A DNA stretch of 64,000 bases, taken from Sinohyriopsis cumingii (taxonomy: Eukaryota > Mollusca > Bivalvia > Unionida > Unionidae). The notes under the pieces are model-generated. The model searched no databases, was not told the origin of the DNA, and worked only from the letters and a program-made list of their open reading frames with translations. The stretch is taken from positions 60,077,219 through 60,141,218 of the forward strand of contig CM068835.1 of NCBI GenBank assembly GCA_028554795.2. The letters are read 5' to 3'. Within the stretch, counting starts at the first letter, position 1; every line of letters starts with the position of its first letter. A program made the translations under genes and the position numbers. Shown here piece by piece: positions 38,900 through 61,139 of the stretch.

Positions 38900-39222
38900 A
38901 GTAGTGAATGGGGTTAGTTTAGCCTCAATGGGAATTAGCATTACAGACCCCCCCCCCCGGGCAAGTTTAGCCTCAATGGAAATTTAACATTAACCACCCT
39001 GGGCAAGTTTAGCCTCAATGGAAGTTTAACATGGGCAAAAAACCCTGGGCAAGTTTAGCCTAAGTGGAATTTAACATTGGAAGAAAAAGACGTTTGGGCC
39101 TGTTGAGCCTCAAGGGGAAATGGAATGGGACCCTATTTTTTTAAAAGAAAAAAAGGGTAGGCAATGGAAAGTCATTCTCTTTTCGAGACCTATGAGTGGC
39201 CCTGAAAAGGGCCTTTGGGTTT
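38900..39222 (+). repeat. Left terminal inverted repeat of Polinton B
   Basis: It is the reverse complement of 57102-57420 with a few substitutions and changes in homopolymer runs. The outer part contains four related units built on GGGCAAGTTTAGCCTCAATG. The inner end carries a histone-type stem-loop on the minus strand. Confidence 0.93.
39198..39213 (-). terminator. Histone-type 3' stem-loop in left repeat, copy B1
   Basis: On the minus strand the sequence is GGCCCT-TTTC-AGGGCC, a perfect 6-bp stem, preceded by CCCAAA and followed by CTCATAGGTCTCG and then AAAAGAG. It lies 24 bases after the stop of the minus-strand gene 39238-39471, the position expected in histone genes. Confidence 0.85.
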
Positions 39223-39237
39223 ATGTTAATGTATCCA

Positions 39238-39471
39238 TTAACATAAGGGGCACCGCATTGGTCTTCTTCTTGTCCTTAGGCTGCGCCTCACTGTAGGACC
39301 GTAAATCAGCACTTTTTTGAGGCATCCTTGTCTTTCTACGTAGATCCTACGTATCCACAGACTGGTGTCTGTCCTGTGGACAACGGTCGACTTGGATCGG
39401 ACATACATTAGCATGTCCGTCCTAAACATCATTGAAGACACAAGGGTGGATGATTCAACTGTGGTCCACAT
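39238..39471 (-). CDS. Small basic protein, left-end gene of Polinton B
   Basis: The frame encodes 77 residues from ATG 39471, reading outward toward the left end. The C-terminal half is basic and ends RRSLRTRRRPMRCPLC, with a short hydrophobic stretch before it. A TATAAATA box lies about 45 bases upstream on the minus strand (39516-39523), and a histone-type stem-loop follows the stop. I do not recognise the product. The Arg-rich tail could bind DNA, like small core proteins of adenoviruses, but this is a guess. The promoter, frame and 3' signal together support a real gene despite its length. Confidence 0.6.
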   Translation of the reverse strand: MWTTVESSTLVSSMMFRTDMLMYVRSKSTVVHRTDTSLWIRRIYVERQGCLKKVLIYGPTVRRSLRTRRRPMRCPLC

Positions 39472-39515
39472 CTTGAGGCGACGAGAACAGGTGAATCAAT
39501 GCAGTGAACTGCACT

Positions 39516-39642
39516 TATTTATAGGTAGAGGAAGGATTGAAACGGATTGAGTTCATTCACCAATCCGAACACGCGTTACAAAATTCAGTCAGCCCGCATC
39601 CAATCCGAAGAGAGCAGTCTGTGACGTCACGTGATCTATATA
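39516..39642. promoter_or_regulatory. Divergent left-end promoter with CRE and E-box
   Basis: A TATAAATA box on the minus strand (39516-39523) serves the left-end gene. On plus, TGACGTCA (39622-39629) overlaps CACGTG (39628-39633) and is followed by TATATA at 39637. TGACGTCA is the palindromic CREB/ATF site and CACGTG the Myc/USF-type E-box. The arrangement suggests a bidirectional early promoter answering to host factors. Confidence 0.65.
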
Positions 39643-39690
39643 GATTTGCTAGCGCCTCTGTGCAGTCAATCTATGCGACAGTGATTCAAC

Positions 39691-40260
39691 ATGACGGAAA
39701 CTCAGAAAACGATCCATTGGGGTGCACCAGCAGTGGAGACCGCCCAAGGGAACCCGGACTTACTTTCAGAAGAGGTAAATTGAAATTTTGTGGATTTTCT
39801 TACCTCGCAAGAATTTGTTCCGGAACCTTAGTCACCTTCTTCATTACCGCAAGTGGAGAATTTTAGACAGAGACAGAAAGAAGAATTGGAGAAATTTATA
39901 CAACGACAAAAGGAAGCGGAACAAGCTTTTCTCCTACAGCAACAGCAGCAAGAAGAAGAGGTAAGAAAAAAACAACAACAAGAAGTAGCAGCAAAGAAAC
40001 AAGAGGGTGAAAATCAAACGGTCACGATACTGTTAGACATTTTAGCGGAGTTAAGAAGTCTGAAACAAATGTATCAGACTTCTTTATCACGACCGAAGAG
40101 AATACGACCTTCCCGAGCTAAACACGTCAACCCTCTGACTAAGCCTCTCGTACCACCCTTAGTGATTTCAACCAAATCATCGTCATCATCAACAGTACGC
40201 AGTCCAGAAGTAGGCCTTGGCCGTGGCAAAGGCTTAAGGCAGTTAAAGTTGATTGCTTAA
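39691..40260 (+). CDS. Q/K-rich coiled-coil gene region, left part of Polinton B
   Basis: The region lies about 50 bases after the TATA box at 39637 and ends at 40260, 22 bases before a histone-type stem-loop. The main open stretch (from about 39853) encodes a Gln/Glu/Lys-rich coiled coil (EELEKFIQRQKEAEQAF), a hydrophobic heptad part (TILLDILAELRSLKQMYQ) and a basic Pro/Ser tail. Which start codon is used is unclear. No known family was recognised. The mixed coiled-coil character resembles the right-end small proteins, but no sequence kinship is evident. Confidence 0.55.
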
Positions 40261-40282
40261 ACTCACCCCTTCACCAAAAAAA

Positions 40283-40298
40283 GGCCCTTTTCAGGGCC
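40283..40298 (+). terminator. Histone-type 3' stem-loop, copy B2
   Basis: AAAAAAAGGCCCTTTTCAGG followed by GCCACCCA is the best match in the window to the animal histone consensus, including the ACCCA cleavage flank. CGAAGAGATA follows 12-13 bases later as the candidate downstream element. The sequence after it (40321-40677) shows only AT-rich spacer. Confidence 0.88.
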
Positions 40299-40677
40299 AC
40301 CCACGTCTCTCGAAGAGATACACTTTCAATTGCCAATAACTCAAAAAAAAACAAAAAAAAAAACAACATTTTACCTCTATAGTACGTGTATATGAGTGCG
40401 TGAGTGTAGCTTCTTATTTTAAAATCAAAACTCAAAGACACTTACCTTATATCATTAATGTATTCTTTTCTCAATAGTTACAATACAATTCACAATTCAC
40501 AACAGAACACTTTAAAAAGTTCATAGACTTCTTCTATCTCATTGTTTACTCTCTCTGTTTTTTCAATTTCTTCACCGTCACAGTCTTTTCCTCCTCTTCC
40601 TTCTCACTTTCTTCCCTTCTTCTTTTTTTCTCCTTTTTCTTTGCCTCTTGTAAATAGAACTGTCTTCTTTCTTCCTC

Positions 40678-41004
40678 TCAAGAATCCCTCTCTTCTTCCT
40701 CTGAAGAATTCCTCTCTTCTTCTGACTCCTTTTGTTTCTTTTTTGGGCAATCTGGAGACCAATGTCCTTTTTCTTGACAATAATAACAGGTATCTTGACT
40801 TTTGTCTTTTCTAGCCCCTGTTTTTCTTTTTTGATGGTCTGGACACTCTGAAGACCAATGCCCTTTCTTCTGACAGATATAGCAAGTATCTTGACTTTTA
40901 TCTCGAAAGGAAGGAGAGTAGTCCGTCGGCTGGTCTGAAGAGAATTTTCTAATGACCCCTCGCAAAGCTCTGATGAAACGTTCGATCTGTCTAGTCTCTT
41001 CCAT
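40678..41004 (-). CDS. CCHC zinc-knuckle protein (Polinton B, minus strand)
   Basis: The frame encodes 108 residues from ATG 41004, chosen because a TATATAAAAG box lies 53 bases upstream on the minus strand. Two CX2CX4HX4C knuckles are present (CYICQKKGHWSSEC, residues 41-54, and CYYCQEKGHWSPDC, 73-86), set in a duplicated DKSQDTCY unit. An acidic Ser/Glu tail follows. Zinc knuckles bind single-stranded nucleic acid, as in retroviral nucleocapsid and cellular CNBP. A role in replication or RNA binding is inferred. The gene is convergent with the coiled-coil gene and divergent from the polymerase. Confidence 0.75.
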   Translation of the reverse strand: MEETRQIERFIRALRGVIRKFSSDQPTDYSPSFRDKSQDTCYICQKKGHWSSECPDHQKRKTGARKDKSQDTCYYCQEKGHWSPDCPKKKQKESEEERNSSEEEERDS

Positions 41005-41056
41005 TGTTGTCTCGGTTTGAGAGTGAAATGAATAGTGAAAGGACAAGACACACACC

Positions 41057-41090
41057 CTTTTATATACGCTGGTCTGCCATGACTATAAAT
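41057..41090. promoter_or_regulatory. Divergent promoter between zinc-knuckle and polymerase genes
   Basis: TATATAAAAG on the minus strand (41057-41066) and TATAAAT on the plus strand (41084-41090) each lie about 50 bases from the start of their gene. The two genes are probably expressed together. Confidence 0.7.
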
Positions 41091-41137
41091 TAGTCTATGG
41101 TGTTTAAACTTGAGTCATTTGACGTTTTGCACTCAAG

Positions 41138-44100
41138 ATGAAACGATCCAATTCATTCGAGAAGAAAGAAGAAGAAGAAGAAAGTAAGAGGCAGAAACGT
41201 GATCAATCGCCTCGTACCAGGGCTGAAGTCTTGGCACAAATTCATGCCAGTGATTTTGAAGAGGACATGAGTGAACCAGAATCCGAACCCTCTAAACAAA
41301 GTTCGCCACCCTTAGTCAACCCTGAAAAGTACTATTCCATTCGAGAGACGGAAAAGCGCTCCTCTAGAAAATTTAGAACCACGGCTTACAAATACACAGT
41401 GAAGTTTAAAGATTTCAAGTCCGAAGTACCGTTAGAGAAAGCAGAAGGGTTCATCACTGGGGTGTGGGATTCTTTCCTCACCGCACTCAAGCGACAATGT
41501 CAACCCAAAGAAGACGATCGCTTGAGACTTTCCATACAACACGACGGTTTGAAATCCCCTGTTTGGATCGAGTTTAGCAGACCCGCAGACCTAACTACTT
41601 CCAAAGTCATGGACAAGATTCAACACGTACAACAATCCAATGACCAGTTTGACATCACCGATGGAAAAGCCACACTGGACATGACCCACGTCTCTCCTCC
41701 TCAAGGGACCGGACAACGCAATAAAGTGTTACTGGTGAACGACCTTCACAGCACCAAAAAGAGTCTCGTCCAAATTCACAATTCTCAAGACCAGATGTGT
41801 TTAGCCCGAGCCATTGTGGTGGGACGAACCTATGCCAACAAGAACGACACGACAGAATGGAAAAGAGCCTGGAAAACTATTCGACAATCGGACCGAGCCA
41901 AACAACGAAACGAAGCAGAACTCCTGTTACAACAAGCCGACTTGCCCAAAGACACACCCTGTGGCATTCCTGAGATGCAAAAATTGCAAGATGTCCTAGC
42001 TCCACGCTACACCTTGAAAGTGCACCCTCAAGAAGTGCGCGGACCTCTGTTGTTTCGAGGGAAAGACTTTAAGGACGGAAAATACATTCATGTCTATTAT
42101 CACGATGACCATTTCGATACCATTACCAGTATCACTGCATTCCTGCGATACAGTTATTACTGTGAGAAATGTGACTATGGCTATAACAATCGAGAGCAAC
42201 ACAAACATTGCGGATTGAAATACTCAGGATGTTTGGCCTCTCCATCCTGTCTGAGCGAAGGACAAGAAAGAGTACATTGTCCTGCTTGTCTGCGTACGTT
42301 TGTCAGCCCTGCCTGTTACGAACAACATCTCAAGACGCAAGGTTCACAGCAGAAATGTGCTTGGCAACTGCTGAGATTGTGCCCTACGTGTGTACAAGGC
42401 TACGTACCAACATTGCCAAGGCACACGTATGTTCAGGAAAAAAAATGTCACATTTGTCACCACATCGTGGACTTGGAACACCAATGCTACATGCAAAAAT
42501 ACCAACCCCCACCAGAGAAAGAGGACGGTCACAAGAAGAAAGGCAATTTCATCTTTTTCGATTTCGAATGCATGCAAGAGACCGCATTCACATTCCTAAT
42601 TTCTGCCTGGTTCATCGAGCGTGCAAGAAGTGCATTCAAGAACCTATCTTCAGTCATTGCCCTCACTGCAGCAAGATTCCTGGAGGACGTGAAAAAATCT
42701 TTCGGGGACCGAACACGCTAGCCGATTTCGCTCGATGGGTCTTAGACCCCATCGACAAGACGTGGAGCCAAGAGGACATCGAACTTTACGCAGATTGTCA
42801 TCGTCATGCCACAGTGATGGCTCACAATTTCTCCGGATACGATGGACAGTTTCTTTTGAGGTACTATACGGAACATGGCATCGAACGTCCTAACGGAGCC
42901 AAAATCATTTTCATGCAAGTGGGACAAGTACAGTTTAAAGATTCGATGAGTTACTTGGCCATGCCTTTGAGTCGAATGCCTAAAACGTTTGGAATGACAG
43001 AAATGGCTAAAGGGTACTTTCCACACTTTTTCAATACGGAAGCCAATCAACACGCCGTTCTACCCCATTTACCTGAGGCTCACTATTACGACCCCGACAA
43101 CATGCGTACCGAACAACGAGAAGCTTTCTACGCTTGGTACCAGGCTCACGCCTCAGACCCTTTCGACTTTCAGGAAGAAATGCTAAAGTATTGTCGTTCC
43201 GACGTGGACATTTTACGACGTTGCTGTGGAAAATTTCGAGAACTGTTCATGGAACACGGAGGGGTCGATCCTTTGAAAGAAGCTTGCACCATTGTCAAAG
43301 CGTGTTCCTTAGTGTATCGACAACAATTCATGCCTGAAAACACCGTAGCTGTCATCAGCCCTCAAACGACCCACTATGTCAAACGTCAATACTCGGTCAA
43401 AGCCCTACGCTGGTTACATTACTTGTGCGACAAGGAAGACAAGTGGATTCAGCATGCTCGCAACGGAGGGGGCGAAAAGACCATCGGAACGCATTCGGTC
43501 GATGGCTGGGACTTAAAAAACCCCAAGATCGTGTACGAGTTTAACGGTTGCTTATTCCATGGATGTCCCGTCTGTTACCCTGACCGTGGCACTAAAAATC
43601 AGTTTCTACAACGAACCATGGAAGACTTGTACCAGGCCACTTGTCAGCGACGCCTAAAGTTAGAAGAGGAAGGATACCAAGTGGTGGAAATGTGGGAACA
43701 CGAGTACGATCACCGTTTGAAAACCGATCCCGAGTTTAAACGTCTCGTGGAAAGTTACCAGTTCATGGACCCGCTGAACCCGAGGGATAGTTTGTACGGA
43801 GGAAGAACCAATGCCACCTGTTTGCTGTACCAAGCCAACGAAGAGAAAGGAGAAGAAATCAAATACTTGGACGTGTGTTCGCTGTATCCTTACGTGTGTA
43901 AATATTGTCGCTTTCCTGTAGGGCACCCACAATTGTTAACGGAACATATCGACCTGAAAAACATTCGACAATACGAAGGCTTGATCAAGTGTAAAGTTTT
44001 GCCTCCCACGAACCTATACCATCCCGTCTTACCTCACCATTGTCAAGGCAAACTGATGTTTCCATTGTGTCGTACTTGTGCCGAAACGTGCAACCAAGAT

Positions 44101-45114
44101 CAGCCTTGTCAGCACACCCAGGAAGAACGGGCCTTGACGGGAACCTGGGTCAGCGTAGAATTGTTCAAAACTCTGGACATGGGATACCAACTGTTAGAAG
44201 TGTACGAAATTTGTCACTTTCCCAAGACACAACAATACCACAAGGGTGACCCCACTCAGAAAGGCATTTTCGCCGACTACGTGGATGCCTTTTTGAAACT
44301 GAAGCAAGAAGCCAGCGGCTATCCTTCCTGGTGTCACACTCCCGAAGACGAAAAGACATTCAAAGAGAAATATTATGAACAAGAAGGCATTTCTTTAGAC
44401 CACATCGAGAAAAACGAAGGCAGGCGATCGTTTGCCAAGGTGATGTTAAATTGCTTGTGGGGTAAAATGGCACAACGTCAGTGTTTACCCAATATGAAAC
44501 ACGTGGATGTCGTTCGAGAGAATTTGATCTTGGTCAATTACGAAGAAGATCTGGACTTTGTACAAGACGACCCTTTTGGAAATGTCATCATTGCGGCTTA
44601 CGTGACAGCTCATGCTCGCTTAAAATTGTACGAAGCTTTAGAACTGTTAGGGGAACGCGTCCTGTACTTTGACACGGACAGTTGCATTTACATCCATCAC
44701 CCGAGTCAACAGCACCCTGACATCGAAGGAGACCGTTTAGGAGCGTGGACAGACGAGCATCCCGACGACAAGATTCTAAGTTTCGTCAGTGGCGGTCCAA
44801 AAAATTACGGCTACGAATACCAGGACCCACAAGGAGAAGTGCACACGACGTGCAAAGTGAAAGGATTGACTCTGAATTATCGTACCAGTCGTGTGGTCAA
44901 CTTTGGGGTATTGAAAGAAGCCTTGCAATCCGGAGAGGATGAACACTTTAAAGTGACCACCTATCAACCAAACAAGATTGTACGTTTACCCACTCACCAC
45001 ATCGTCAGTCGACCCTTGGAAAAAGTTTATCAAATCGTGTACCAGAAGCGAGTGCGACTGCCCAATCATTTCACTTTGCCGTATGGACATGTTGGTATAA
45101 AACTTTGGTTGTAG
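41138..45114 (+). pseudogene. Protein-primed type B DNA polymerase (PolB) region of Polinton B
   Basis: A 4-kb region with a charged N-terminal part, several Cys/His pairs, and the family B motifs in order: an exonuclease I stretch FIFFDFECMQE, exonuclease II AHNFSGYDGQFLL, exonuclease III YCRSDVDILRR, polymerase A DVCSLYPYV, polymerase B KVMLNCLWGK and polymerase C YFDTDSCIY, followed by KVKGLTL. These are the marks of protein-primed polymerases of adenoviruses and Polintons, which copy the linear element from its ends. The region is not one open frame and carries about one or two breaks. The catalytic motifs themselves are well kept, which fits recent inactivation. Confidence 0.93.
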
Positions 45115-45137
45115 GCGGATAGCCACCCACTAGAAGG

Positions 45138-46289
45138 ATGACTTCGCCACAGCAAGAATCGAGTGAGAAACCCGATGAGAACTCCAAGTTCAAACCCTAC
45201 CATTTTCCAGTCTTCTTACCTGACTATTGTGATTGTGCCCGTTGATTGGACACGTTTCAAGCATGGCCTACGGATAGGAAAGGATTACCTTCTTCGCATA
45301 TTTTAGCTAGAACAGGATTTGTCTACTTGGGACCTGAGTCAGGATTGGGATATGAAGTACAGTGTTTCGCTTGTGGCCTGAAGTTACGAATGGATCTATG
45401 TATCTATAAAGATTCAGCTATTCTGGAACATACTCGATTGTCTCCGCACTGCCCTTACCTTTGTATGGCCTTTCCACCCATGACATTACGGTACAATGAT
45501 GACGGTACCTTAGAGACGGTACCTTCCAAAACAAGACATAAAAAACATAAAAAAGAACGATGTACAAGCTTCAGACTGCATTGCGACCAGTATAAAAAGG
45601 GGCTATGGTTAAGATCGATAGTTCACTGGGACTACCAAGACCGAGCGAACAAGATGAATACTTTCAGAGGAACACAAAACAAGTTTAGACAGGCACAATT
45701 CAAGTGTGGGGCTTCGGAAGTGGAATGCGATTGTGAGCCTTGCGATGGGTACGATGCTATACGTTGTGACCTTAGCGATGCCGTAAAGCATCATGGGAAC
45801 TTTGTTCTCACTACCCCTATCATGGAAAGGGATGCTGTGCGTGTCAAACCTGAGGGATGCGAAAGCGATGCCACTCGTCCTCTTGGATATTTTGCTGGGT
45901 TTCGTTTTAAAGGGGAATGTTCACCTTCGCGTCTACCCCCCTACGGATGTCATCCAGCCCTGAGCAAACTCCTGTTCATGTCACCCAACCCTCATCGAAA
46001 CGAACCTGTGAAACACGAATATTCGTTTCCTGTGCGTTTGTCGGAATACTGCAACTTTGAAAATCGTCTTCAATCGTTCAAAGGAAAATGGCCTAAGTAT
46101 CTGGGAGGACCGACCCCGGAAGAATTAGCCAGAGCCGGATTTTTCTACTTGGGCGAAGGAGATAAAGTCAAGTGCTTCAGTTGCGGTGTGTCACTTCACC
46201 ACTGGGAACCGCAAGATTCGGCCTACGTAGAACATGCTCGATGGTCACCGAATTGTCATTACTTACCCTTAGTGGGACCGAGACATTAA
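45138..46289 (+). pseudogene. BIR-domain (IAP-like) gene of Polinton B
   Basis: Two baculovirus-IAP-repeat domains are visible. The first has CFACGLKL, then HTRLSPHC; the second, near the C-terminus, has SFKGKWP, AGFFYLGEGDKVKCFSCGVS, HWEPQD and EHARWSPNC, the CX2C...H...C zinc pattern. Between them is a Cys-rich basic region. No RING finger is present. IAP proteins of baculoviruses and hosts block caspase-driven death; in a virus-like element the gene may have kept the host cell alive. The copy appears to have about one break. It could be an acquired host gene. Confidence 0.8.
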
Positions 46290-46300
46290 AGTAACTTACC

Positions 46301-47439
46301 ATGTCGTTGACGAAGAAGAAACCAGTTTGGCTAGGAGTCAAATGTTGGACATCACCGAGACCAGTATTTAAACTTCATTTCAAAAACGATATTGAATCAT
46401 TACCTAAAGAACTACAAGAGAAGATTTACAAGGAAGTTTGGCAGGGGTTTGCCAGAGAAATCTCAATGGGTCACTGTAGAACTTTTGTGCCGAGAAATTC
46501 ACAAGAGGAAAGTGAAAAAAGTCAACCAGTGTGTTAGATTTCTTTAGGTCAAGTGTGCATTCGTCCTATTGTATTACTCTAGTCCGTTTACATCAAAAGA
46601 GTTCAATGACATTCTTGGACGTTACCCTGAATGGCAGGGGCCAGAAATTACTCACTATGTGGATTACTTTTGCTCTAGAAGAAGATTGTGAATTGTACGG
46701 ACTAACCTATTCATGGATACTTTGCTAGAGAACATTCGTGCTTTGCCTGTGGAGTTGAGAGAACGCATTTACCGAGAACTGATCAAAATACAAGTGAAAC
46801 GCAAACGCAAAGTTATTCATCCGTTTTTAAATTATGCTCTGTTCCAAAGTATAAGAAGACTGATTATGAGTGGATATTACATCAGCCACAAAGGTAAACG
46901 AGGCTATTGGCCACCACCCAAGGATTCCAAAAACAGTGTATATTCTTATGGATACTTTACAAGAGAACATTTTGGGCTTGCCTGTGGAGTTGAGAGAACG
47001 CATTTACCGAGAGCTGGTCAAAATACAAGTCAAACGTAAAGAACAGTTGCATCCGTTACGTCACCAGATCTTTAACCACTGGTACCTGAATGGTATAAGA
47101 GGACTGATTCGTCAGAAATTGTTTCAGTGGTCAGACCTTGTTGAACACTTTCAGTTAGTGAATGAACTAAACGTTCGTAATTTTGGTTACTTCGAGATTC
47201 ACCTACTGCAACGTATTGAGGAAGATGAGTTAAAGGATTACCAACATATTTTAAGTGGAATCTGCTTAGAAGAAGACGAAACATCTAGACAAACTCTGAC
47301 GTTTCGGTTACAGTATGCAACATTTAGATTCCCTACTGGAGAACGAAGATGTCTAGTTAGAAATTACCTTTATTGCTTCCGAAACAAAGAGACTATAAAA
47401 TCAAGCTGCCATGCCACGACTTATGTCACATGTTATTGA
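46301..47439 (+). pseudogene. Tandemly duplicated small gene family with LPxELxxxIY motif
   Basis: At least three related units follow each other. They start near 46385, 46709 and 46941 and share the motif SLPKELQEKIYKEV or LPVELRERIYREL, followed by basic residues. The second and third are clearly direct duplicates (about 230 bases apart), while the first is diverged. The longest product (from about 46946 to 47439) is helical with a Trp-rich middle. The motif recalls the first helix of F-box or SOCS/BC-box domains that recruit ubiquitin ligases, but the match is short. Some units look damaged. Confidence 0.45.
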
Positions 47440-48164: not shown

Positions 48165-48171
48165 AACATTC

Positions 48172-48177
48172 AATAAA
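48172..48177 (+). terminator. Candidate poly(A) signal before the ATPase gene
   Basis: AATAAA lies 8 bases after the stop of the membrane-tail gene, followed by AT-rich sequence; it would end the polymerase-to-accessory block. Confidence 0.45.
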
Positions 48178-48248
48178 CGTGTTCTGAAAAAAAGTATATT
48201 AACTCTCGTCTTGTTTGTTTTCGTGTCACAAGTGACATTCCTCACACT

Positions 48249-49148: not shown

Positions 49149-49551
49149 TCTCAAAGAAGTCTTACGATGGTTCACGGTGACGGCACGTCAAATACTCCAA
49201 GGAATCATTCAGATTCCTCATCAAACCAAACGCTTTTTTGATCGAAACAAAGTCGCTTTGACCCAACTGGCCGATCCCCGCATCGACACTCAAACCAAAA
49301 ATCAAATCATTTTGAAACCTGGAGGGAGCGGTACTCTAGGGGGGGTCATCATTCGCTCTCTCTTAAGATGGGATCCTAATGCCCCCAAACTTCTCCCCAA
49401 GAAAAAAGTCCAACGAAGCCCCAAGAAGAAGAAGAAAAAGATCAGGTCCCCAAGGAGAACTTCTCCAGTGGCGGGACCCTCCTCTTACCACACACCACCC
49501 CGGATAAAGAAAAGAAGCCCCCAGAAAAAGAAACAGAGAAAAAGTCCCTAG
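49045..49551 (+). CDS. Basic virion-type protein after the ATPase (Polinton B)
   Basis: From ATG 49045 the frame gives 168 residues, overlapping the ATPase end. A helical N-terminal part (PVKLIRALYGISREKN) leads to a segment with KNQIILKPGGSGTLGGVIIR, a pattern I recall from proteins encoded next to the ATPase in other Polintons, and then a long Lys/Arg/Pro/Ser tail. The composition resembles DNA-condensing or minor capsid proteins. Decayed counterparts of both conserved stretches lie in relic D at about 58520-58830. The exact role is unknown. Confidence 0.6.
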   Translation: MTSLQSHLPVKLIRALYGISREKNPQIRARVLEASLKEVLRWFTVTARQILQGIIQIPHQTKRFFDRNKVALTQLADPRIDTQTKNQIILKPGGSGTLGGVIIRSLLRWDPNAPKLLPKKKVQRSPKKKKKKIRSPRRTSPVAGPSSYHTPPRIKKRSPQKKKQRKSP

Positions 49552-49644
49552 AAAAAGAAAAGCCCACAGAAGAAAACTATTCGCAAGAGAGGCACTTCGG
49601 CCAGGACGCAACCTTACACTCGCAAACCACGACCTGCCACGGCG

Positions 49645-50040
49645 GTGACCGCGTCTCCGGCAGCCTCACGTTCATCCACTTCTCCGTTGATGACACCAAG
49701 AACTGAAGAGTACTTGGAGACGTTGATCACACCAAGAACATCTCCGTTGATGACCCCAAGAACTTACCCAGTGGCAGGACCCTCCAATTTAGTGGCAGTG
49801 GCTGCTGCTCACAAAGTACCTTCTCCCAAAATCAAAGTCCAAGAAAGATCGGGCATGTTACAAAGTTTACTGGATTTGTCCAAGCAAGAATTGGCTCGAA
49901 TTAGTCCGTTGCGTACCCCTGCAGGACGTGTCATGCCTGTCCTCAAATTGATACGACGTAAAGACAATCAGTGGCGACGCGTTCCAGTTTTAAAAAGCCC
50001 TGTGACCAAGTCGGGGTATCAGTGTTTTTGGCGCTCCTGA
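49645..50040 (+). CDS. Ser/Thr/Pro-rich protein with short repeats (Polinton B)
   Basis: The open stretch encodes about 130 residues. Repeats of the type TSPLMTPRT occur near the start, and the C-terminal half has LQSLLDLSKQELARISPL and a basic segment. The start codon is not certain because the frame opens without a clear ATG. I do not recognise the family. Its place between two virion-type genes suggests a structural or scaffold role. Confidence 0.45.
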   Translation: MTASPAASRSSTSPLMTPRTEEYLETLITPRTSPLMTPRTYPVAGPSNLVAVAAAHKVPSPKIKVQERSGMLQSLLDLSKQELARISPLRTPAGRVMPVLKLIRRKDNQWRRVPVLKSPVTKSGYQCFWRS

Positions 50041-50050
50041 AGACTCAAAG

Positions 50051-50455
50051 ATGTCACCCTCCAGAAAACATCCCTCTTCTAAACAACCCCAAGGAAAGAA
50101 AAGAAAAGGACTGCCTCCTCGTTTAGTCAAACATGGGGACATGTTATCTGTCCTGTCCAAAGCTTCTCCACCTCTTCGAAAAAAACTCATTCAATCAGCC
50201 TCCAAAGAGGTCATCGATACCGTGTGCGAATGTTGCTTGAACGTCTTGAAAGGCACGATCCCTTTCTCCAAACACCAGAAACAATGCTTAGGCAAACATC
50301 GTCACGTTCTTCGCCAAATGGTTCAAAAGAAAATTCCCATTCGTCAAAAGAAGAAGATGTTGGTCCAACGTGGAGGCATTTTACCCCTCTTGTTAGGTCC
50401 CTTGCTGAAAGGAGTCTTGGGAACCATGTTGGGAGGACTGGTGGGAGCAAGATAA
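50051..50455 (+). CDS. pX-like basic membrane-active protein (Polinton B)
   Basis: The frame encodes 134 residues. A basic N-terminus is followed by the Polinton-typical segment VIDTVCECCLNVLKGTIPFS and, after a KKK cluster, by RGGILPLLLGPLLKGVLG, ending in a glycine-rich hydrophobic tail. The RGGILPLL stretch is also found in the adenovirus core protein pX (mu precursor). The family is thought to act in virions at the DNA core or to disturb membranes. Well kept in this copy. Confidence 0.75.
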   Translation: MSPSRKHPSSKQPQGKKRKGLPPRLVKHGDMLSVLSKASPPLRKKLIQSASKEVIDTVCECCLNVLKGTIPFSKHQKQCLGKHRHVLRQMVQKKIPIRQKKKMLVQRGGILPLLLGPLLKGVLGTMLGGLVGAR

Positions 50456-50504
50456 AAAGGCCCTCGGAAGTCCCAAGATCTTAGAATCGACCCCTGACAA
50501 CCCC

Positions 50505-51131
50505 ATGGAAGGACGAAAAATAGCTTTAGTGCCTTACAAACGATGGATGGAATACCATCGTTGGCAAGAACAACGCACCCCGCATTTACCTCCCAATCCC
50601 AATTTGAGCGAGATGTCCCAGTTACAACACGAATTGCAGTCCTTGATGGATCGCCAAGATTTGTCCGAAACAGAAAAATCGCAAAAGTACGGTCAACTCT
50701 TGCAACGACTGCAACTCTTTCACCAGAAAGCTTTAGACGAAAAAGCTCTACCCACTCTGAAAGATTTTAAGACCTTGATGAAAAGTCCAGCACCATCACC
50801 AGTACCAGTACCAGTACCAGTGACCAAGACAGAAAAAGGAGAAGAAGAAGAAGGGTTTCAAACTCCACCAGAAAAAGTACGCAAGTTAACAACACCACCT
50901 ACCTCCAGAATTGGATGGATTAAAAAGATGATGGCCACCCTTTCTTCATCACAAGAGAAAAAGAAAGTGAAGACAGAAGTGAAGACAGAATTGAAACAAG
51001 AACCGATATCCCCTGTTCACACATCCTCCTCCTCGACACCTATTGCCGGTCGCACACGCAAAGCATTGCAATCCAAGAAAATACCCCAAGAGAAAAAGAG
51101 TAGCATCCTCCAAGAGTGGGTGTCTTATTAA
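50505..51131 (+). CDS. Minor virion-type protein (Polinton B)
   Basis: The frame encodes 208 residues. The start RKIALVPYKRWMEYHRWQ, followed by an L-x-x-L helix and the segment DLSETEKSQKYGQLLQRLQL, matches a pattern I recall from Polinton and adintovirus minor proteins (LVP...; D-x-D-x-x-K-x-x-x-Y). A long Pro/Lys/Thr-rich disordered middle contains a short PV repeat and two KTE-type repeats. Function is not known; a place in the capsid is inferred from context. Confidence 0.55.
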   Translation: MEGRKIALVPYKRWMEYHRWQEQRTPHLPPNPNLSEMSQLQHELQSLMDRQDLSETEKSQKYGQLLQRLQLFHQKALDEKALPTLKDFKTLMKSPAPSPVPVPVPVTKTEKGEEEEGFQTPPEKVRKLTTPPTSRIGWIKKMMATLSSSQEKKKVKTEVKTELKQEPISPVHTSSSSTPIAGRTRKALQSKKIPQEKKSSILQEWVSY

Positions 51132-51153
51132 CACACAAACAAACACAAAAAAA

Positions 51154-52263
51154 ATGGAAAAAGTCTTAGCCAGCATTTACTACGATCCCTCCCATCCTGC
51201 AGGTTACGCAGAACTTCAAAAATTGTATCGTGCTGCCAAAACTCGACTGAAAAGTCTCCGTTTACCTCAAGTACAACGATGGTTACAAGAACAAGCTACC
51301 TACACTTTACACAGACCCATTCGACGCAAGTTTGCTAGAAGTCGCACCTGAGTGGAAGGCATCGATCATCAATGGCAAGCCGATTTAGCCGATGTCTCTC
51401 ATTTGGCCAGCTACAATCGTGGCTACAAATATTTGTTTTGTGTCATCGACGTCTTTTCCAAATTTGCCTGGGTCGTGCCCTTGACTTCCAAATCGAGCAG
51501 CGAGTTAGTGCGAGCCCTGCAACAGGTGTTGAAACAAAGCGGTCGTCACCCTCTTCGACGGCAAACGGACAAATCTACCGAATTTCTGAACCAAGCTTTC
51601 CAAAAAGAATTAAAGAAACGTGACATTCATTTTTTTACCACCGAGAATCCCGAAACTAAAGCCAGCATCGTGGAACGTTTTCAACGCACTTTGAAAGAAC
51701 GCATGTGGAAATATTTTACGCATCACCACACTCTGAAGTACATCGACATCTTACCGCACCTGGTGCAAGCGTACAACCAATCTTACCATCGAAGCATCGG
51801 ACGTGCCCCGCAAGAAGTGACTCCCGAGAACGAAGTGTTGGTGTTTGAGCGCCTGTTTGGTACGTCCCCGACGAGGGCTGTACCCAAGAAAAGTGGAATG
51901 TTGGCCGTAGGAGATTGAGTGCGCATTGGCAAAACCAAACGCACTTTCGACAAAGGTTACTTACCTAACTGGACGACCGAATTGTTTCGCGTCACTGGAC
52001 GAGTGCATGGTTGTCATCCTACCGTCTATAAATTGGAAGACATGAACGGAGAAGTGCTCAAAGGAACGTTTTATTTGCCCGAGTTACAACGTGTGACCAA
52101 AAAAGAAGACGACGTGTACGACATCGAAAGCATTCTCGAACGCAGAACCCGTAAAGTAGGCAAACGACGAGTCAAAGAAGTCAAAGTACATTGGAAAGGA
52201 TATCCACCCAGTTTTGATTCTTGGATCGACGCTTCGCAAGTCATCGACTATAAAAAGAAGTGA
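51154..52263 (+). pseudogene. Integrase region with chromodomain (Polinton B)
   Basis: The region shows a retroviral-type integrase core (IDHQWQADLADV, YLFCVIDVFSKFAWVVPL, RQTDKSTEF and a KASIVERFQRTLKERM helix with the third acidic residue) followed by a C-terminal chromodomain (YDIESILERR and VHWKGYPPSFDSWI). Polinton integrases join the linear DNA to the target and leave a 6-bp duplication, as seen at the ends of this element. The chromodomain may guide insertion to modified histones. The region carries a few breaks. A far more decayed integrase lies at 60000-60860. Confidence 0.92.
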
Positions 52264-52268
52264 CCATC

Positions 52269-53492
52269 ATGCCCTTTCACTCAGACGCAGCTACTACGGC
52301 TACCAATCCTTCACCTAGTTCTTCTCTACAAGATTTGCAAAAACAACCCTTGTGGGTGTGGTGCGGAGAACGTGTGCCTAAAACGCAAATCGTCTTTTTC
52401 TGCCAAATCTTCGTGGTGTATTGTGTCATCGTGGCAGCCATTGTCAATTTGAGTTTGCAACAAGGAGACAAACAATTGTGGACCATTTTATTGAGCAGTT
52501 GCATCGGTTACCTGCTTCCCAATCCAGCGTACCTGGAAAATCTCTTGACGTACATAAAAGAAGCCAAGAACACTCATCTGGATGCTTGTGTGGTATGGAA
52601 ACCTGACAAAGCGACTAAGTTCAACGGTCTTACACTTGCCGGGGATGCTTCAAATCCAACGGGATTTGTAGAACGACGAACGAAAATTCATCTAAGTCGT
52701 AGTTTAGAACTGATGGATCGCTTGCATCTAGACATGTGGTTACAAGAAAAGTATTTGCTGAACGGGGTGGATGTCCGCTTGAGACTGAATCCCAGCAGTG
52801 CCGCTTTCCATTTGATGGCTGCTGATGGTTCCACTTACAAAACCATCATCCAAGAAGCCAGACTCTACGTGCGTCGTGTGGAAGTGTTACCTAAAGTGGG
52901 AAACGACGTCAGTCAGACGTTGAGCAGAACGACCGCCAAGTATCCGATACGTCGCGTGGAAGTGAAAACCTTCACCATTCCTGCTGGACAGCGATCCATG
53001 ATCGAAGATCATCTGTTCCAAGGACAGTTACCCAAGCGTTTGATTGTTGGTATCGTCAAGAATTCAGCCTTCAACGGAGCCTACCATGAAAATCCTTTCA
53101 ACTTTCATCATTACAATGTGTCCAAGATTGAAGTCAGTCGCGATGGAAAGACCTTGTGTACCCGACCCTTTGAGCCTAACTTTGGTGACAGGAATTATTT
53201 GAGATCGTACTTGTCGCTGTACGAAGCCACCGGACAGTTAGGAACCAACACCAGTCACGGTATTACGTACGAGGATTATGCAGGAGGCTATGCTTTGTGG
53301 GCTTTCTATTTCACTCCAGACCAGGGCAGCGACGAGGGACATTTCCACCCTATAAAATCCGGCCAAATTCGTGTGGAAATTCAGTTTGCGAGTCCACTGG
53401 ATGCAGGGAACACAGTGAACGTCATCCTGTATGCAGAATTTGATAATACGATAGAAATCAACAGTTTGAGAGAAGTCATTCTAGACTATTAG
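52269..53492 (+). pseudogene. Membrane protein and major capsid region (Polinton B)
   Basis: The first ~85 codons match the small Polinton membrane protein (CGERVPKTQIVFFCQIFVVY, then a second hydrophobic segment and SSCIGYLLPNP). The remainder matches the major capsid protein of the double jelly-roll type (LQEKYLLNGVDVRLRL, AKYPIRRVEVKTF, ILYAEFDN). The capsid part is incomplete, so the block is treated as broken. It is the counterpart of 1-685 in element A. Confidence 0.8.
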
Positions 53493-53497
53493 AAGCC

Positions 53498-53979
53498 ATG
53501 GAAGACTGTTATCCCTCTTTACCTAGTGGAGAAACTTTGGAGATGGAATGTAAGGAGACCGTGGAAGGAGAATCCCAAGACAAAGACGAAGAAGTTGTCA
53601 TGATGAAGTCAAGATGGCCAGAACAAGAAGCCCATTTAGTCTCCTGTTTTGCCAAACACTTGGTCGAAAAAATGACGGAATTGATCAAGAAAATTTCTAT
53701 GGATGTCAAAACGATCATCCCAGTCAAATTCAACACGATAAATGTCTGATGTTGAGTCAAGAAGAAAAATTGGATGAGTATCTGGACGAAGCTTGGAGTC
53801 TCATCTCGGACGAAGTCGTGTTGCATCAGTGGTATAAAGACTTGCGTGAACATTCTTGTCCACCATTAACCACTCAAGAGATCGATCGTATCGAAGCTCT
53901 CCTGAATCAAAGTGAGGAGACGAAGCGAAGAAACGGTTATTTGTCAGACATTTCAAACAAAACGTCAGGATCGAATTGA
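53498..53979 (+). pseudogene. Uncharacterised gene between capsid and protease (Polinton B)
   Basis: This is the counterpart of 691-1176 in element A, with the same MEDCYPSLPSGETL start and the KSRWPEQEAHLV stretch. This copy looks broken (about one break). The family is unknown. Confidence 0.6.
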
Positions 53980-54019
53980 TGACTTATTATTACCTGTGAA
54001 GAAGAAAACACACAAATCA

Positions 54020-54580
54020 ATGGATACCTGGGAACTTTATTACCTTTTGAACCACAGTTCGTACACGGCTTCTTGGAATCCTGTCGTCTGTGCTAAAGAT
54101 GAACTCCCTCATCGCAAACCTCAAGACAATCTAGCTTATGTGATCAACACGGACGACAGTCATCTCCCAGGAACCCACTGGGTAGCCGTTTACTTTCCTC
54201 AAGAAGGATGTGTGGAATATTTTGATTCGTACGGATTGCTCCCTTTGGAAGACGATATCATTGACTTTATGAGAAGAAATGCTCAGACCACCCGATTCAA
54301 TAATGTGAAATTACAAGGTACAGATTCCTTGGTGTGTGGACAGTACTGTGTGTATTTTCTGCATCATCGCAGCCTGGGCTATTCCTTAGAACATTTAGTG
54401 ACTCATTTTGATCCTCGTTCTTCTTCAAGAAACGATGTGAAAGTAGATCGATGGTTTTGTGACCATTATGCTTATCTTTTGTCTCTAGCTAGGAAACGTA
54501 GTGTCCATCAATGGCCTAATGACTTCCAACAGTGGAAATCACAATTTCATTCACAACGTTGTCAGCCCTGTTTAAAGTAG
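54020..54580 (+). CDS. Polinton cysteine protease, adenain/Ulp1-like (element B)
   Basis: The frame encodes 186 residues from ATG 54020, nearly identical to the protease of element A. The catalytic pattern is kept: His in GTHWVAVYF, Asp in YFDSYG, Gln in VKLQGTDS and Cys in VCGQYC, with the spacing of adenain. It is the last gene of the polyadenylated structural block; AATAAA follows at 54688. It looks whole. Confidence 0.9.
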   Translation: MDTWELYYLLNHSSYTASWNPVVCAKDELPHRKPQDNLAYVINTDDSHLPGTHWVAVYFPQEGCVEYFDSYGLLPLEDDIIDFMRRNAQTTRFNNVKLQGTDSLVCGQYCVYFLHHRSLGYSLEHLVTHFDPRSSSRNDVKVDRWFCDHYAYLLSLARKRSVHQWPNDFQQWKSQFHSQRCQPCLK

Positions 54581-54687
54581 AGTGTGAATTGAAAAAAATG
54601 TTTGAGATTTGAAAAAAATGTTTGATGTTATATTGTTGGATTATTGTTAAAAATGTTATAGTTGTTTGTTAGTGTTAAGTGATTTTG

Positions 54688-54693
54688 AATAAA
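54688..54693 (+). terminator. Candidate poly(A) signal after the protease (B)
   Basis: AATAAA in the same context as 1876 in element A (GATTTTGAATAAAAAATG). Conservation between copies supports use. Confidence 0.6.
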
Positions 54694-54816
54694 AAATGTG
54701 TTTTGAAAAAATGCCTTTGTCTTTTGTTTGGCTATAAGAATATTGATTCATGCTCTTTGACTTCTCTCTATCTCTCTCATGACACTCATTGAACGTTACG
54801 GCTCGAAAACCGTAGA

Positions 54817-54851
54817 GGGATGTTTTCCTTCACGTCCGCGCTTTGACTTTA
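54817..54851 (+). promoter_or_regulatory. Repeated promoter module, copy B1
   Basis: GGGATGTTTTCCTTCACGTC then CGCGCTTTGACTTTAAG, the same as A1 at 2011; it precedes the ATG at 54908. Confidence 0.7.
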
Positions 54852-54907
54852 AGAACCGGGGTAGTTTCCAGTCTAACCATCCATTGTCGACTCATCCTCC
54901 TACGAAG

Positions 54908-55117
54908 ATGTGCTCCAAACTAGCTAAGCTAAACGAAGCCTACGTGAATTTGCATAGGGTCAGACACAGTCTGATACCGAAGCCAGAAGAGATAGAGAAT
55001 GTGAGAATGTTAAAAGTCACTGAAGACCTGATAGAAGAGCTCTTCAGAGAAGAAGTGAACAGGGAGAAAGAAGAATGGACAGAGAAGTACAGACTTCAGA
55101 GACAGCAGCAACAGCAA

Positions 55118-55148
<31 letters not shown>

Positions 55149-55276
55149 CACCTGAACATGACAGAGGCTTTGTCGATTGTCGTATCGACACCAAAGAGTT
55201 CTTCTTCTCTTTCCGAAGAAGCAGACCTATCGTCAGAAAGTCTATCCTCAAAGGACGTCGCATTCTTAGAAACTAA
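54908..55276 (+). CDS. Small polyQ coiled-coil protein, right-end gene 1 (element B)
   Basis: The frame encodes 122 residues, homologous to 2102-2452 in A. The glutamine run is longer and less interrupted than in A, and the rest is nearly unchanged, including the basic Arg/Ser C-terminus. The helical N-terminus is MCSKLAKLNEAYVNLH. A promoter module lies upstream and a histone-type stem-loop at 55305. Function unknown. Confidence 0.72.
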
Positions 55277-55304
55277 AAGATTGCCATAGCAAACAAAAAA
55301 AAAC

Positions 55305-55320
55305 AGCCCTTTTCAGGGCT
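55305..55320 (+). terminator. Histone-type 3' stem-loop, copy B3
   Basis: AGCCCT-TTTC-AGGGCT, perfect stem, followed by ACCCCA and the purine run AGAAAAGAAA at 55334. It starts 28 bases after the stop. Confidence 0.85.
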
Positions 55321-55637
55321 ACCCCAATACTCTAGAAAAGAAATAACAATCGATTTGCCAATGTGTGTAGGTAGAGTAGTGTGAATATAAACACTAACTC
55401 TTTTTTTATAGTGTGAGGGTATGTGTTTGTGTATAAGATTGCGTGTTTGTAAGTGCTCACGTACGTTGGTGTGGATAGTAGATTAAGATCATGTCTTTTT
55501 TTGCTGTTAGAGGTGTGGGGAGAGTATATTTGGGGTTTGATTGCTTTGCGTATGTGGATAGTATATTGAAGTGATTAATGAAAATTTTTGAGAATAGTAA
55601 TGGGTAGTATAAAAAAAGTGAGTGAGTGTTTCTTTTA

Positions 55638-55727
55638 GGTCCGCGCGTTGTTTGGTCATGATCTAGGTAAGATCAATTTTATGTTTTTAGGGGATGTTTT
55701 CCATCAGGTCCGCGCTTTTACTATAAA
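55638..55727 (+). promoter_or_regulatory. Double promoter module B2
   Basis: Half module GGTCCGCGCGTTGTTTGGTC, then ATGATC...AGATCAATTTTATG, then GGGATGTTTTCCATCAGGTC and TATAAA at 55722. Same layout as 2810-2902 in A. Confidence 0.75.
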
Positions 55728-55781
55728 TTGAAACTCGTTCGGCAGTCTAGCTACCCTTGTTGATTGATCAACACCACCAGA

Positions 55782-56078
55782 ATGAACACCAGAATTGTGA
55801 AACTGCTAGAACTCCAGATGCACCTGGAATATGCCAGGCGCCTGTTAAATGAACTGGCCGCGGAGGCCATTGTCGAAGAGGGAAGGATGAGAGAGGAGGA
55901 GGAAAGAAGAAAAAAAGAAGAGGAGGAAAAGGAGAGAAGAAATCTCAGAATCCCAGAGACAGAAAATTGGGATTCTGAAGCCACTTATCCCGCCTCTGCA
56001 CTCCCAAGAAAAAAGGTAAAAGGAGACTGGGGAAGAAGATGTGTGTGTGGCGCCAGACCAGGAAGGTGCCAGCATTAG
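55782..56078 (+). CDS. Small charged coiled-coil protein, right-end gene 2 (element B)
   Basis: The frame encodes 98 residues, shorter than its A homologue (143). The leading helix LLELQMHLEYARRLLNEL and the tail RRCVCGARPGRCQH are kept, while the middle is shorter and different. The start at 55782 lies 55 bases after TATAAA. A histone-type stem-loop follows at 56108. The conserved CVCGARPGRC tail could bind metal or form disulphides; this is inference. Confidence 0.7.
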   Translation: MNTRIVKLLELQMHLEYARRLLNELAAEAIVEEGRMREEEERRKKEEEEKERRNLRIPETENWDSEATYPASALPRKKVKGDWGRRCVCGARPGRCQH

Positions 56079-56107
56079 ATAGGTGCATCTGGAGTTAAAA
56101 AACAAAC

Positions 56108-56123
56108 AGCCCTTTTCAGGGCT
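56108..56123 (+). terminator. Histone-type 3' stem-loop, copy B4
   Basis: AGCCCT-TTTC-AGGGCT with an ACCCA flank and AGAAAAGAAA 13 bases later; 29 bases after the stop codon. Confidence 0.87.
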
Positions 56124-56250
56124 ACCCAGTACTCTAGAAAAGAAATAACAATCGATTTGCCAATGTGTGTAGGTAGAGTAGTGTGAATATAAACACAGAC
56201 TCTTTTTTTCCTAGTGTGAGGGTATGTGTTTGTGTGTTTGTGTTTGTAGG

Positions 56251-56465
56251 CGCTCACGTACGTTTGTGTGAATAGTAGATTATGGGTTTGTTTATTGTTT
56301 CTTAGCGTATGTGGAGAGTATAGTTTGGGTTTTGTAACCGCTCACGTACGTTTGTGTGAATAGTAGATTATGGGTTTGTTTATTGTTTCTTAGCCTATGT
56401 GGAGAGTATAGTTTGGGTTTTGTAACCGCTCACGTACGATTGTGTGGATAGTAAATTATGGATTT
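56251..56465 (+). repeat. 88-bp tandem duplication in spacer of Polinton B
   Basis: Units beginning CGCTCACGTACGTTTGTGTG start at 56251, 56339 and 56427, a period of 88 bases; the third is partial and diverged. Element A has a single unit here. Confidence 0.8.
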
Positions 56466-56562
56466 TGTTTTAATGATTTGAGTGTGTAAATAGTAGATTT
56501 GGGGTTTGTTAAATGTTGCTTCACTTATGTGGATAGTAGATTATATGAAATGAGAAAGTAGG

Positions 56563-56667
56563 GGGATGTTTTCCTTCACGTCCGCGCGTTGTTTGGTTAT
56601 GATTTAGGTAATATCAATTTTATGTCTTGGGGGATGTTTTCCATCACGTCCGCGCTTTCACTATAAG
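56563..56667 (+). promoter_or_regulatory. Double promoter module B3
   Basis: Two GGGATGTTTTCC modules (from 56563 and 56631) flank the GGTTATGATTTAGG segment; TATAAG at 56662 is followed by the conserved leader up to ATG 56708. Confidence 0.75.
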
Positions 56668-56707
56668 AACCCACAGTATTCGTCGTTCAAACCATTCTAC
56701 AGAGAAG

Positions 56708-57082
56708 ATGGCTTCAAACGACCTCGATAAAATGCAAACATTGCAAGACGTCCTGGACAATTTGGGCATGATGGAACAAATGAGGCTAAACGAAGATCAC
56801 TATTCTTATAGCCCCCATCGAGTGAAGATGGAGATTAACAACTTAAGAAAAGTAAAGGAAATGATAAGTGCTGTGATGAAAGAAATAAAGGAGGAGAAGG
56901 AGGATGAAGAGGAAAGGATAAGGATAAGAGCATGGAATGAAAAAATTGAAAAAGAAGAAGAAAATGAGAAGAGGAAGAAAGAAGAGGAGGAGAAGAAGAA
57001 AGAAGAGAGAAAAAAAGGAAGAAAAGAAAGAAAAGAAGAGAAAGAGTGTAGGAGAGAAAATAAGAAGTTGGTGGAGAAATAG
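56708..57082 (+). CDS. Small charged helical protein, right-end gene 3 (element B)
   Basis: The frame encodes 124 residues from ATG 56708. The N-terminus (MASNDLDKMQTLQDVLDNLG) and EDHYSYSPHRVKMEINNLRK are shared with A and C; the Lys/Glu-rich helix is longer than in A. The start is fixed by conservation of the leader and N-terminus. The stem-loop at 57111 lies in the terminal repeat. No domain was recognised. Confidence 0.72.
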   Translation: MASNDLDKMQTLQDVLDNLGMMEQMRLNEDHYSYSPHRVKMEINNLRKVKEMISAVMKEIKEEKEDEEERIRIRAWNEKIEKEEENEKRKKEEEEKKKEERKKGRKERKEEKECRRENKKLVEK

Positions 57083-57101
57083 AAGAAATTAGAAGCAGAA
57101 G

Positions 57102-57420
57102 AAACCCAAAGGCCCTTTTCAGGGCCACTCATAGGTCTCGAAAAGAGAATGACTTTCCATTGCCTACCCTTTTTTTCTTTTAAAAAAATAGGGTCCCATT
57201 CCATTTCCCCTTGAGGCTCAACAGGCCCAAACGTCTTTTTCTTCCAATGTTAAATTCCATTGAGGCTAAATTTGCCCAGGGTTTTTTGCCCATGTTAAAC
57301 TTCCATTGAGGCTAAACTTGCCCAGGGTGGTTAATGTTAAATTTCCATTGAGGCTAAACTTGCCCAGGGGGGTCTGTAATGCTAATTCCCATTGAGGCTA
57401 AACTAACCCCATTCACTACT
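57102..57420 (+). repeat. Right terminal inverted repeat of Polinton B
   Basis: It pairs with 38900-39222 and ends ATTCACTACT. It contains the stem-loop signal and four related subterminal units built on CCATTGAGGCTAAACTTGCC. Confidence 0.93.
57111..57126 (+). terminator. Histone-type 3' stem-loop in right repeat, copy B5
   Basis: CCCAAA precedes GGCCCT-TTTC-AGGGCC, with AAAAGAG at 57141-57147, 14 bases beyond. It is the mirror image of copy B1 in the left repeat. Confidence 0.87.
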
Positions 57421-60854: not shown

Positions 60855-61110
60855 CATTATGACACCAAACAAAGAGTGTATCAAAGGGACTGGCGTTCTT
60901 TCTTTTGATTGCCAACTGACATTATGACCCCAAACAAAGAGTCCATCAAAGGGACTGGCGTTCTTTCTTTTACTTGCCAACTGACATTATGACACCAAAC
61001 AAAGAGTCTATCAAAGGGACTGGCGTTCCTTTTTTTTTTTTTGATTGCCAACTGACATTATGCCCCCAAAGAGTCCATCAAAGGGAATGGCGTTCTTTAT
61101 TTTAATTGCC
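60855..61110 (+). repeat. Tandem repeat, four units of 65-71 bp
   Basis: Units beginning CATTATGACACCAAACAAAG start at 60855, 60920, 60985 and 61056. They share ATCAAAGGGACTGGCGTTCT and TTGCCAACTGA. The array abuts the integrase piece of relic D and may have grown from its last part. Confidence 0.85.
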
Positions 61111-61139
61111 AACTGTTGAAACCATCTCAGATATTCTTC

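Follow-up and report, generated by a model that had tools for sequence, protein, structure and literature searches.

The 64,000-nucleotide (nt) stretch analysed here (the window; positions 60,077,219 to 60,141,218 of contig CM068835.1 of the bivalve Sinohyriopsis cumingii) contains an 18.5-kb mobile element, B, which by its gene content and termini is a Polinton. Two additional copies of the same family, A and C, lie in the window; C is inverted and shows its right end, as indicated by the site at 63526, which follows a gene of the right-end type. Five small genes sit at the ends of B, p85 and p190 on the left and R1, R2 and R3 on the right. Each is followed by a stem-loop resembling the one that closes replication-dependent histone mRNAs, and the three genes on the right are also preceded by a promoter element common to the histone genes of the host. 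The element, its end genes and the stem-loops are as follows.

38900–57420, plus strand: Polinton B, whole element, with broken genes in this copy; starts AGTAGTGAATGG, finishes CCATTCACTACT, 6-bp target-site duplication GTCGTA on both sides; carries a family B DNA polymerase (PolB), ATPase, rve and Chromo
38952–39222, no strand: left arm of the terminal inverted repeat, found with the repeat tool, 99% match to 57102–57372; inner edge 9 nt past the stem-loop
57102–57372, no strand: right arm of the terminal inverted repeat, found with the repeat tool, 99% match to the left arm
39238–39495, minus strand: p85, left outward gene, open frame of 85 codons; ratio of nonsynonymous to synonymous substitution rates (dN/dS) 0.175 over 38 copies
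39691–40260, plus strand: p190, left inward gene, with two in-frame stops in B and longer frames in other copies
54908–55276, plus strand: R1, right-end gene, open frame; start inferred and set after the promoter element
55782–56078, plus strand: R2, right-end gene, open frame; dN/dS 0.254 over 12 copies
56708–57082, plus strand: R3, right terminal gene, open frame; dN/dS 0.288 over 10 copies of its class
39198–39213, minus strand: histone stem-loop of p85 (pattern and Rfam); purine element at about 39177–39185
40283–40298, plus strand: histone stem-loop of p190 (pattern and Rfam); purine element at about 40312–40320
55305–55320, plus strand: histone stem-loop of R1, A-U bottom pair (pattern); purine element at about 55334–55343
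56108–56123, plus strand: histone stem-loop of R2, A-U bottom pair (pattern); purine element at about 56136–56145
57111–57126, plus strand: histone stem-loop of R3 (pattern and Rfam); purine element at about 57139–57149
2483–2498, plus strand: stem-loop of R1 in copy A, T-T mismatch at the bottom (pattern)
3416–3431, plus strand: stem-loop of R2 in copy A (pattern)
4199–4214, plus strand: stem-loop of R3 in copy A (pattern)
63526–63541, minus strand: stem-loop of an R3-type gene in the inverted copy C (pattern and Rfam)

The initial annotation had placed nine stem-loops at these positions and strands, and our scan retrieved all of them. We used the pattern GGYCCTTTTCAGGRCC with up to three mismatches and obtained 10 matches in the window where 0.84 were expected; none of the 100 shuffles used as background reached 10. 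The tenth match (33423, minus strand) has a different loop. Four of the nine sites pass the gathering score of the Rfam family Histone3 (RF00032), which we used as cut-off, with 34.1–36.5 bits (39173–39218 minus, 40278–40322, 57106–57151 and 63501–63546 minus), and no other Rfam match in the window reaches gathering. Below it are the sites at 3416, 55305 and 56108, which have an A-U bottom pair, the one at 2483, with its T-T mismatch at the bottom, and the one at 4199, which lacks the ACCCA flank. The stem-loops had also been described as lying 22–31 nt after the stop of a short gene on the coding strand. This holds for eight of the nine, which are 22–30 nt from the stop of a same-strand open frame of at least 85 codons, but not for the site at 4199, where 56 nt separate the stem-loop from the closest stop of such a frame. 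The gene before 40283 carries two in-frame stops in B.

The same arrangement recurs throughout the genome (all genome-wide figures refer to sites, not to elements). We scanned the 2.9-Gb assembly and scored 75 places out of 589,472 candidates with Histone3, a partial list given that the host histone genes are absent from it. All 75 exceed the cut-off, and each maps to an end of this Polinton family: it aligns to one of the ends of A, B or C over 439 nt or more, with an aligned piece at the stem-loop in every case. The earlier remark that the stem-loop genes occupy the element ends extends well beyond the window. The exact pattern GGCCCTTTTCAGGGCC-N10-16-GAAAAG, which joins the stem-loop to the purine element, occurs 32,209 times (host H2B copies counted in) versus 0 for the reversed pattern. 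We then assembled a set of 150 sites from the window and the first 68 genome loci, seeking a stop within 60 nt of the stem and using the protein end. Five kinds of small gene precede the stem-loop: p85 accounts for 41 sites, p190 for 43, R2 for 19 and R3 for 21, the other 26 being R1, damaged genes, locus-edge sites and a few misfiled by the assignment rule. The stop-to-stem distance is 15–36 nt in 124 of the 150 sites, those assigned to the four gene types. Pairing extends over six stem positions in 133/150 sites, five in 15/150 and four in 2/150, and the loop is TTTC in 145/150. For the 147 sites at which it was tabulated, the bottom pair is G-C in 114, A-T in 25, A-C in 4, G-T in 2, T-T in 1 and C-C in 1. 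A purine run lies 12–14 nt past the stem in 144 of these 147 sites, in agreement with the purine stretch first noticed downstream of the stems.

The host histone genes stand in tandem, with a repeat unit of about 8.3 kb. In the single repeat that we fetched for comparison (locus L137), H1, H2A, H2B, H3 and H4 all close with a histone stem-loop and a purine element. The closest match to this H1 is an unnamed protein with 97% identity; named matches come mostly from bivalves, the best being a mussel protein with 68% over 38% of the length, consistent with a mollusc and probably a bivalve. The stem-loop reads GGCCCTTTTTAGGGCC in H3 and H4, GGCCCTTTTAAGGGCC in H2A, GGTCCTTTTCAGGACC in H1 and GGCCCTTTTCAGGGCC in H2B, this last 16-mer being identical to the Polinton stem-loop. 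The stems are followed in the host by CTAGAAAAGA, or CCGAAAAGG in H2A, and in the Polinton by CTAGAAAAGA or CTCGAAAAGAG; GAAAAG stands at the same distance from the stem in both. When we compared the 60 nt past the stem, with the purine element among them, 8 of 30 host-Polinton comparisons (with H3, H2B and H2A) beat all 300 shuffles; the remaining 22 do not, and some have no similarity beyond chance. Folding z-scores range from −1.9 to −4.0 for three Polinton sites and the host H2B site has −2.8; at 56108 the minimum-energy fold differs and the stem-loop appears only as the centroid. The 16-mer alone was rejected as a diagnostic marker, because 65 stretches of phage-type viral contigs contain it, mostly in a terminator-like context; none of these has ACCCA after the stem. 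The comparison with the host histone genes, the Rfam scores and the recurrence across the genome support the view that the 3′ ends of the end genes are histone-type.

The promoters of the end genes extend the resemblance, and they are listed here.

54810–54840, plus strand: histone-type promoter element of R1 (motif, host comparison)
55620–55730, plus strand: R2 promoter, with an H4-like element at 55639, an H2B-like element at 55708 and a TATA
56555–56680, plus strand: R3 promoter, with two element copies (56580 and 56648) and a TATA; 24 nt identical to host H2B
39500–39690, no strand: divergent p85/p190 promoter region, with two CCAAT, TGACGTCA and a TATA

Upstream of the host genes we observed GATGTTTTCCATCACGTCCGCGCT before the TATA of H2B, GGGATGTTTTCAATCACGTCCGCGCTC in H1, TTTCTTTTAGGTCCGCGCGTT in H4 and, inverted, CATGTTTTCCATTACGTCCGC in H2A. 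The 24 nt common to the R3 promoter and H2B compare with a maximum of 12 for shuffles of the H2B upstream region, and the R2 promoter has 21 nt identical to H4; the H3 upstream region has no long stretch in common with the Polinton promoters. The motif GTCCGCG occurs at nine sites on the plus strand of the window (2028, 2811, 2883, 3681, 54834, 55639, 55708, 56580 and 56648), all of them upstream of right-end stem-loop genes, and at a single site on the minus strand, inside the polymerase gene. Among sites with 900 nt of upstream sequence at hand, it precedes 4/4 R2, 17/19 R3 and 10/18 other sites. The promoter element together with TATAA is found 13,517 times in the genome versus 0 for the reversed control. 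HiNF-P (MIZF) binds the core CGTCCGC, and CAATC-N-GGTCCG is the H4 box; the right-end element, GATGTTTTCC[A/T]TCACGTCCGCGC, is probably a HiNF-P/H4-box site. Its presence on the right-end genes is an addition to what had first been observed, and at the level of sequence the resemblance of these genes to histone genes extends to the 5′ as well as the 3′ end. The left promoters are built otherwise: two CCAAT are present in 40 of 41, TGACGTCA in 39 and TATA in 35, and the longest stretch that the p85/p190 promoter has in common with the five host histone upstream regions is 9 nt. Such a CCAAT/CRE/TATA promoter is compatible with histone genes without being specific to them.

Four of the five end genes are under selection at the protein level. 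We computed dN/dS from pooled pairwise comparisons of near full-length copies, which favours intact genes and involves pairs that are not independent, and obtained 0.175 for p85 (38/41 copies), 0.42 for p190 (25/43), 0.25 for R2 (12/19) and 0.29 for R3 (10/21), the latter being a mixed class with a mean protein identity of 48%. A Pfam search of p190, R1, R2 and R3 revealed nothing above the cut-off and no histone among the weak matches; the idea that these four are diverged histones thus finds no support there. We found 19 homologues of p190, with 56–91% identity and located on short contigs. One of them, P0250, does not end at the usual position but continues into WPISGPPTSLEKR, possibly through translation of a stem-loop and CTAGAAAAGAG. 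At another locus (L097), the protease and an R3-type end gene are joined in one open frame of 343 codons, apparently by deletion, and the stem-loop is kept.

We consider it likely that the terminal genes of this Polinton have been placed under the replication-dependent histone programme of the host, their transcripts being cut through SLBP and U7 without acquiring poly(A) and peaking in S phase. PMC5706932 attributes histone mRNA end formation to the stem-loop, SLBP and the U7 small nuclear ribonucleoprotein (snRNP), and describes HiNF-P as binding H4 promoters and recruiting NPAT. In a cnidarian, according to PMC5011920, the stem-loop and downstream element, the lack of a poly(A) signal and S-phase expression occur all together. 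R1 to R3 would be transcribed from histone-type promoters built on the element described above and a TATA, and the p85/p190 pair from its divergent promoter. Host SLBP would bind the stem-loop and the U7 snRNP would recognise the purine element; cleavage right behind the stem would then yield short mRNAs without poly(A), peaking in S phase, whose translation would depend on SLBP and which would be lost once S phase ends. An element with its own polymerase may profit from a supply of these proteins in S phase. We infer that the signals originated by capture from host histone genes. The promoter element makes the S-phase proposal more likely, since the right-end genes carry the very element found on host histone genes. 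The presence of the same signals on the host histone genes implies that the machinery to read them exists in the host.

Several results weigh against this interpretation. Searches for the host factors themselves were negative, with controls that were silent or prokaryotic. Rfam gave 0 U7 matches in the genome, with silent controls. A first U7 pattern gave 3 matches versus 9 in the control, none U7-like; a second gave 48 versus 47, none U7-like among the 15 inspected; a third gave 231 versus 130, none convincing among the 7 inspected. The most tempting candidate of the second pattern (C13:13576118) was rejected: judged by its flanks, it is the antisense of a Polinton purine element, and Rfam U7 is absent there. 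We observed a U7-like motif string at four positions of one contig (G000:C3:10695997, 10719311, 10742674 and 10766053), spaced by about 23.3 kb; the one copy inspected has no U7-like hairpin. For the SLBP domain there were 14 candidates, 0 of them at 1e-3, with silent controls. The promoter motif GTCCGCG is missing from the left-end genes, being found upstream of 0/43 p190 and 0/39 p85 sites. Compensatory changes in the stem, whose absence had been named as a test, are present as G-C to A-U swaps, but almost solely at the bottom pair: in 21 distinct sequences including the host histones, 89.7% of the cells pair and there are 9 two-sided changes, a number reached by 1 of 500 shuffles, eight of them at the bottom pair, and the number of pairs with a two-sided change is not unusual (115/500 shuffles). 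The covariation is therefore real but narrow, being nearly confined to one of six pairs. In p190 and R2 other blocks equal the stem-loop in conservation, hence these classes say little about constraint. The motif A[A/T]TAAA follows within 150 nt in 23/150 sites (p85 7/41, p190 7/43, R2 0/19, R3 5/21, others 4/26), but its absence is no distinguishing mark of the end genes, because 11 of the 13 internal plus-strand genes of B also lack it within 200 nt after the stop (the two with it are the protease, at 107 nt, and a small gene, at 7 nt). Finally, recurrence after stops in further Polintons stands within this family and not beyond it: in six distant Polinton fragments the stem-loop was found in 0/6 by pattern and 0/5 by Rfam, these being partial contigs whose ends may be missing. 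The fragments are of animal type and represent contamination of prokaryote bins derived from tubeworm, mussel, sponge and other samples.

The signals might instead be passengers, i.e. pieces of a histone cluster once picked up and now functionless, which owe their abundance to copy number alone. Identity to host histone DNA speaks for such an origin, many copies, B included, are broken, and young copies of p190 and R2 are alike throughout. Yet the modules are correctly ordered and spaced on five kinds of gene, with the promoter before and the stem-loop behind, and the coding sequences of near full-length frames have dN/dS below 1. Moreover, in p85 and R3 the identity of the stem-loop (0.98–0.99) and of the purine element (0.90) exceeds that of the spacer (0.80–0.85) and of the far flank (0.46–0.48); the 12 nt preceding the stem are likewise conserved (0.93–0.94). 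We regard functionless passengers as unlikely. The stem-loop could also serve mainly to halt outward transcription into host DNA, S-phase timing being incidental. The outermost genes, p85 and R3, do face outward and have their stem-loops at the inner boundary of the inverted repeat, but the inner genes p190, R1 and R2 bear it too and termination has no need of a histone promoter element on the right-end genes, which leaves a border terminator with very little probability. That the hairpin acts as DNA, in replication, packaging or integration at the termini, is hardly credible: two of the five stem-loops of B are within the inverted repeat, but three are outside it, all stand behind genes on the coding strand with a purine element downstream, and the complete signal is common to host histone genes.

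Polintons and histone-type 3′ ends are each of a known kind, and it is their combination that appears new. B resembles Polinton/Maverick elements in its PolB, its rve and chromodomain, its A32-like ATPase, its inverted repeats and its 6-bp target-site duplication, and probably also in a putative F54H12.2-like capsid and a candidate adenain/S273R-like protease; it differs in the histone-type promoters and 3′ ends of its end genes. With the metazoan histone mRNA 3′ end (RF00032, the SLBP/U7 snRNP pathway), the Polinton version has in common the 6-bp stem, TTTC loop, ACCCA flank and Rfam scores, as well as a purine element 12–14 nt on and a position 15–36 nt from the stop; it is unlike it in following non-histone genes of a mobile element and in the frequency of the A-U bottom pair (25/147). 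Similarly, it is like the host repeat in the H2B 16-mer, the GAAAAG and the promoter elements common with H2B (24 nt) and H4 (21 nt), but that repeat encodes five histones and the end genes of the four types searched match no histone family. To our knowledge, this 3′ end is in animals essentially confined to replication-dependent histone genes. The initial annotation knew of no report of it in Polintons, and we found none either: a full-text search, which covers few subscription journals and no preprints, gave no paper with both 'histone stem-loop' and 'Polinton', and looser queries gave nothing relevant by title and start of the abstract among the matches listed.

On balance, we lean towards the view that a virus-like transposon has copied an S-phase promoter element and an SLBP/U7-type 3′ end onto several unrelated genes, creating tens of thousands of such 3′ ends, and that its RNAs and histone mRNAs may be in competition for SLBP and U7, which would tie its life cycle to DNA replication. 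If so, this would be a natural hijacking of the S-phase programme by a mobile element, through both a 3′ end and a matching promoter element. It would also give a testable cell-cycle rule for Polintons, whose gene expression appears little studied, and supply thousands of natural variants of the stem, the purine element and the promoter. It raises the question of whether so many copies burden the histone supply of the host.

B is assigned by its internal genes as well as by its termini and its length, which falls within the 15–20 kb of Polintons. The polymerase, whose frame is broken in this copy, is of the protein-primed family B type according to its profile match (Pfam DNA_pol_B_2, E 1.2e-38). 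The packaging ATPase is A32-like (Pox_A32, E 2.2e-7, above the cut-off) and the integrase has an rve core (E 1.3e-12) and a Chromo domain (E 3.8e-8), in two pieces that were searched separately; Pfam also identifies a zinc-knuckle protein gene. The cysteine protease has no Pfam match and, among PDB sequences, matches S273R of African swine fever virus (E 1.4e-4) and, only weakly, adenain (E 0.13–0.32). Another protein has 577 homologues, of which the named ones are F54H12.2-like and largely from oyster, a family which we take to be the Polinton capsid. Queries with the integrase, the capsid and p190 revealed no relatives in viral contigs. A CCHC zinc-knuckle gene adjoins p190 (40578–41079, minus strand), and none of the nine stem-loops lies behind it. 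One Polinton gene (45246–46289) carries two BIR (inhibitor-of-apoptosis) domains, and inside a small gene a direct repeat of about 93 nt occurs in two copies that are 88% alike (46713–47439). Between B and C, at 60855–61116, there is a tandem repeat of about 65 nt in four copies.

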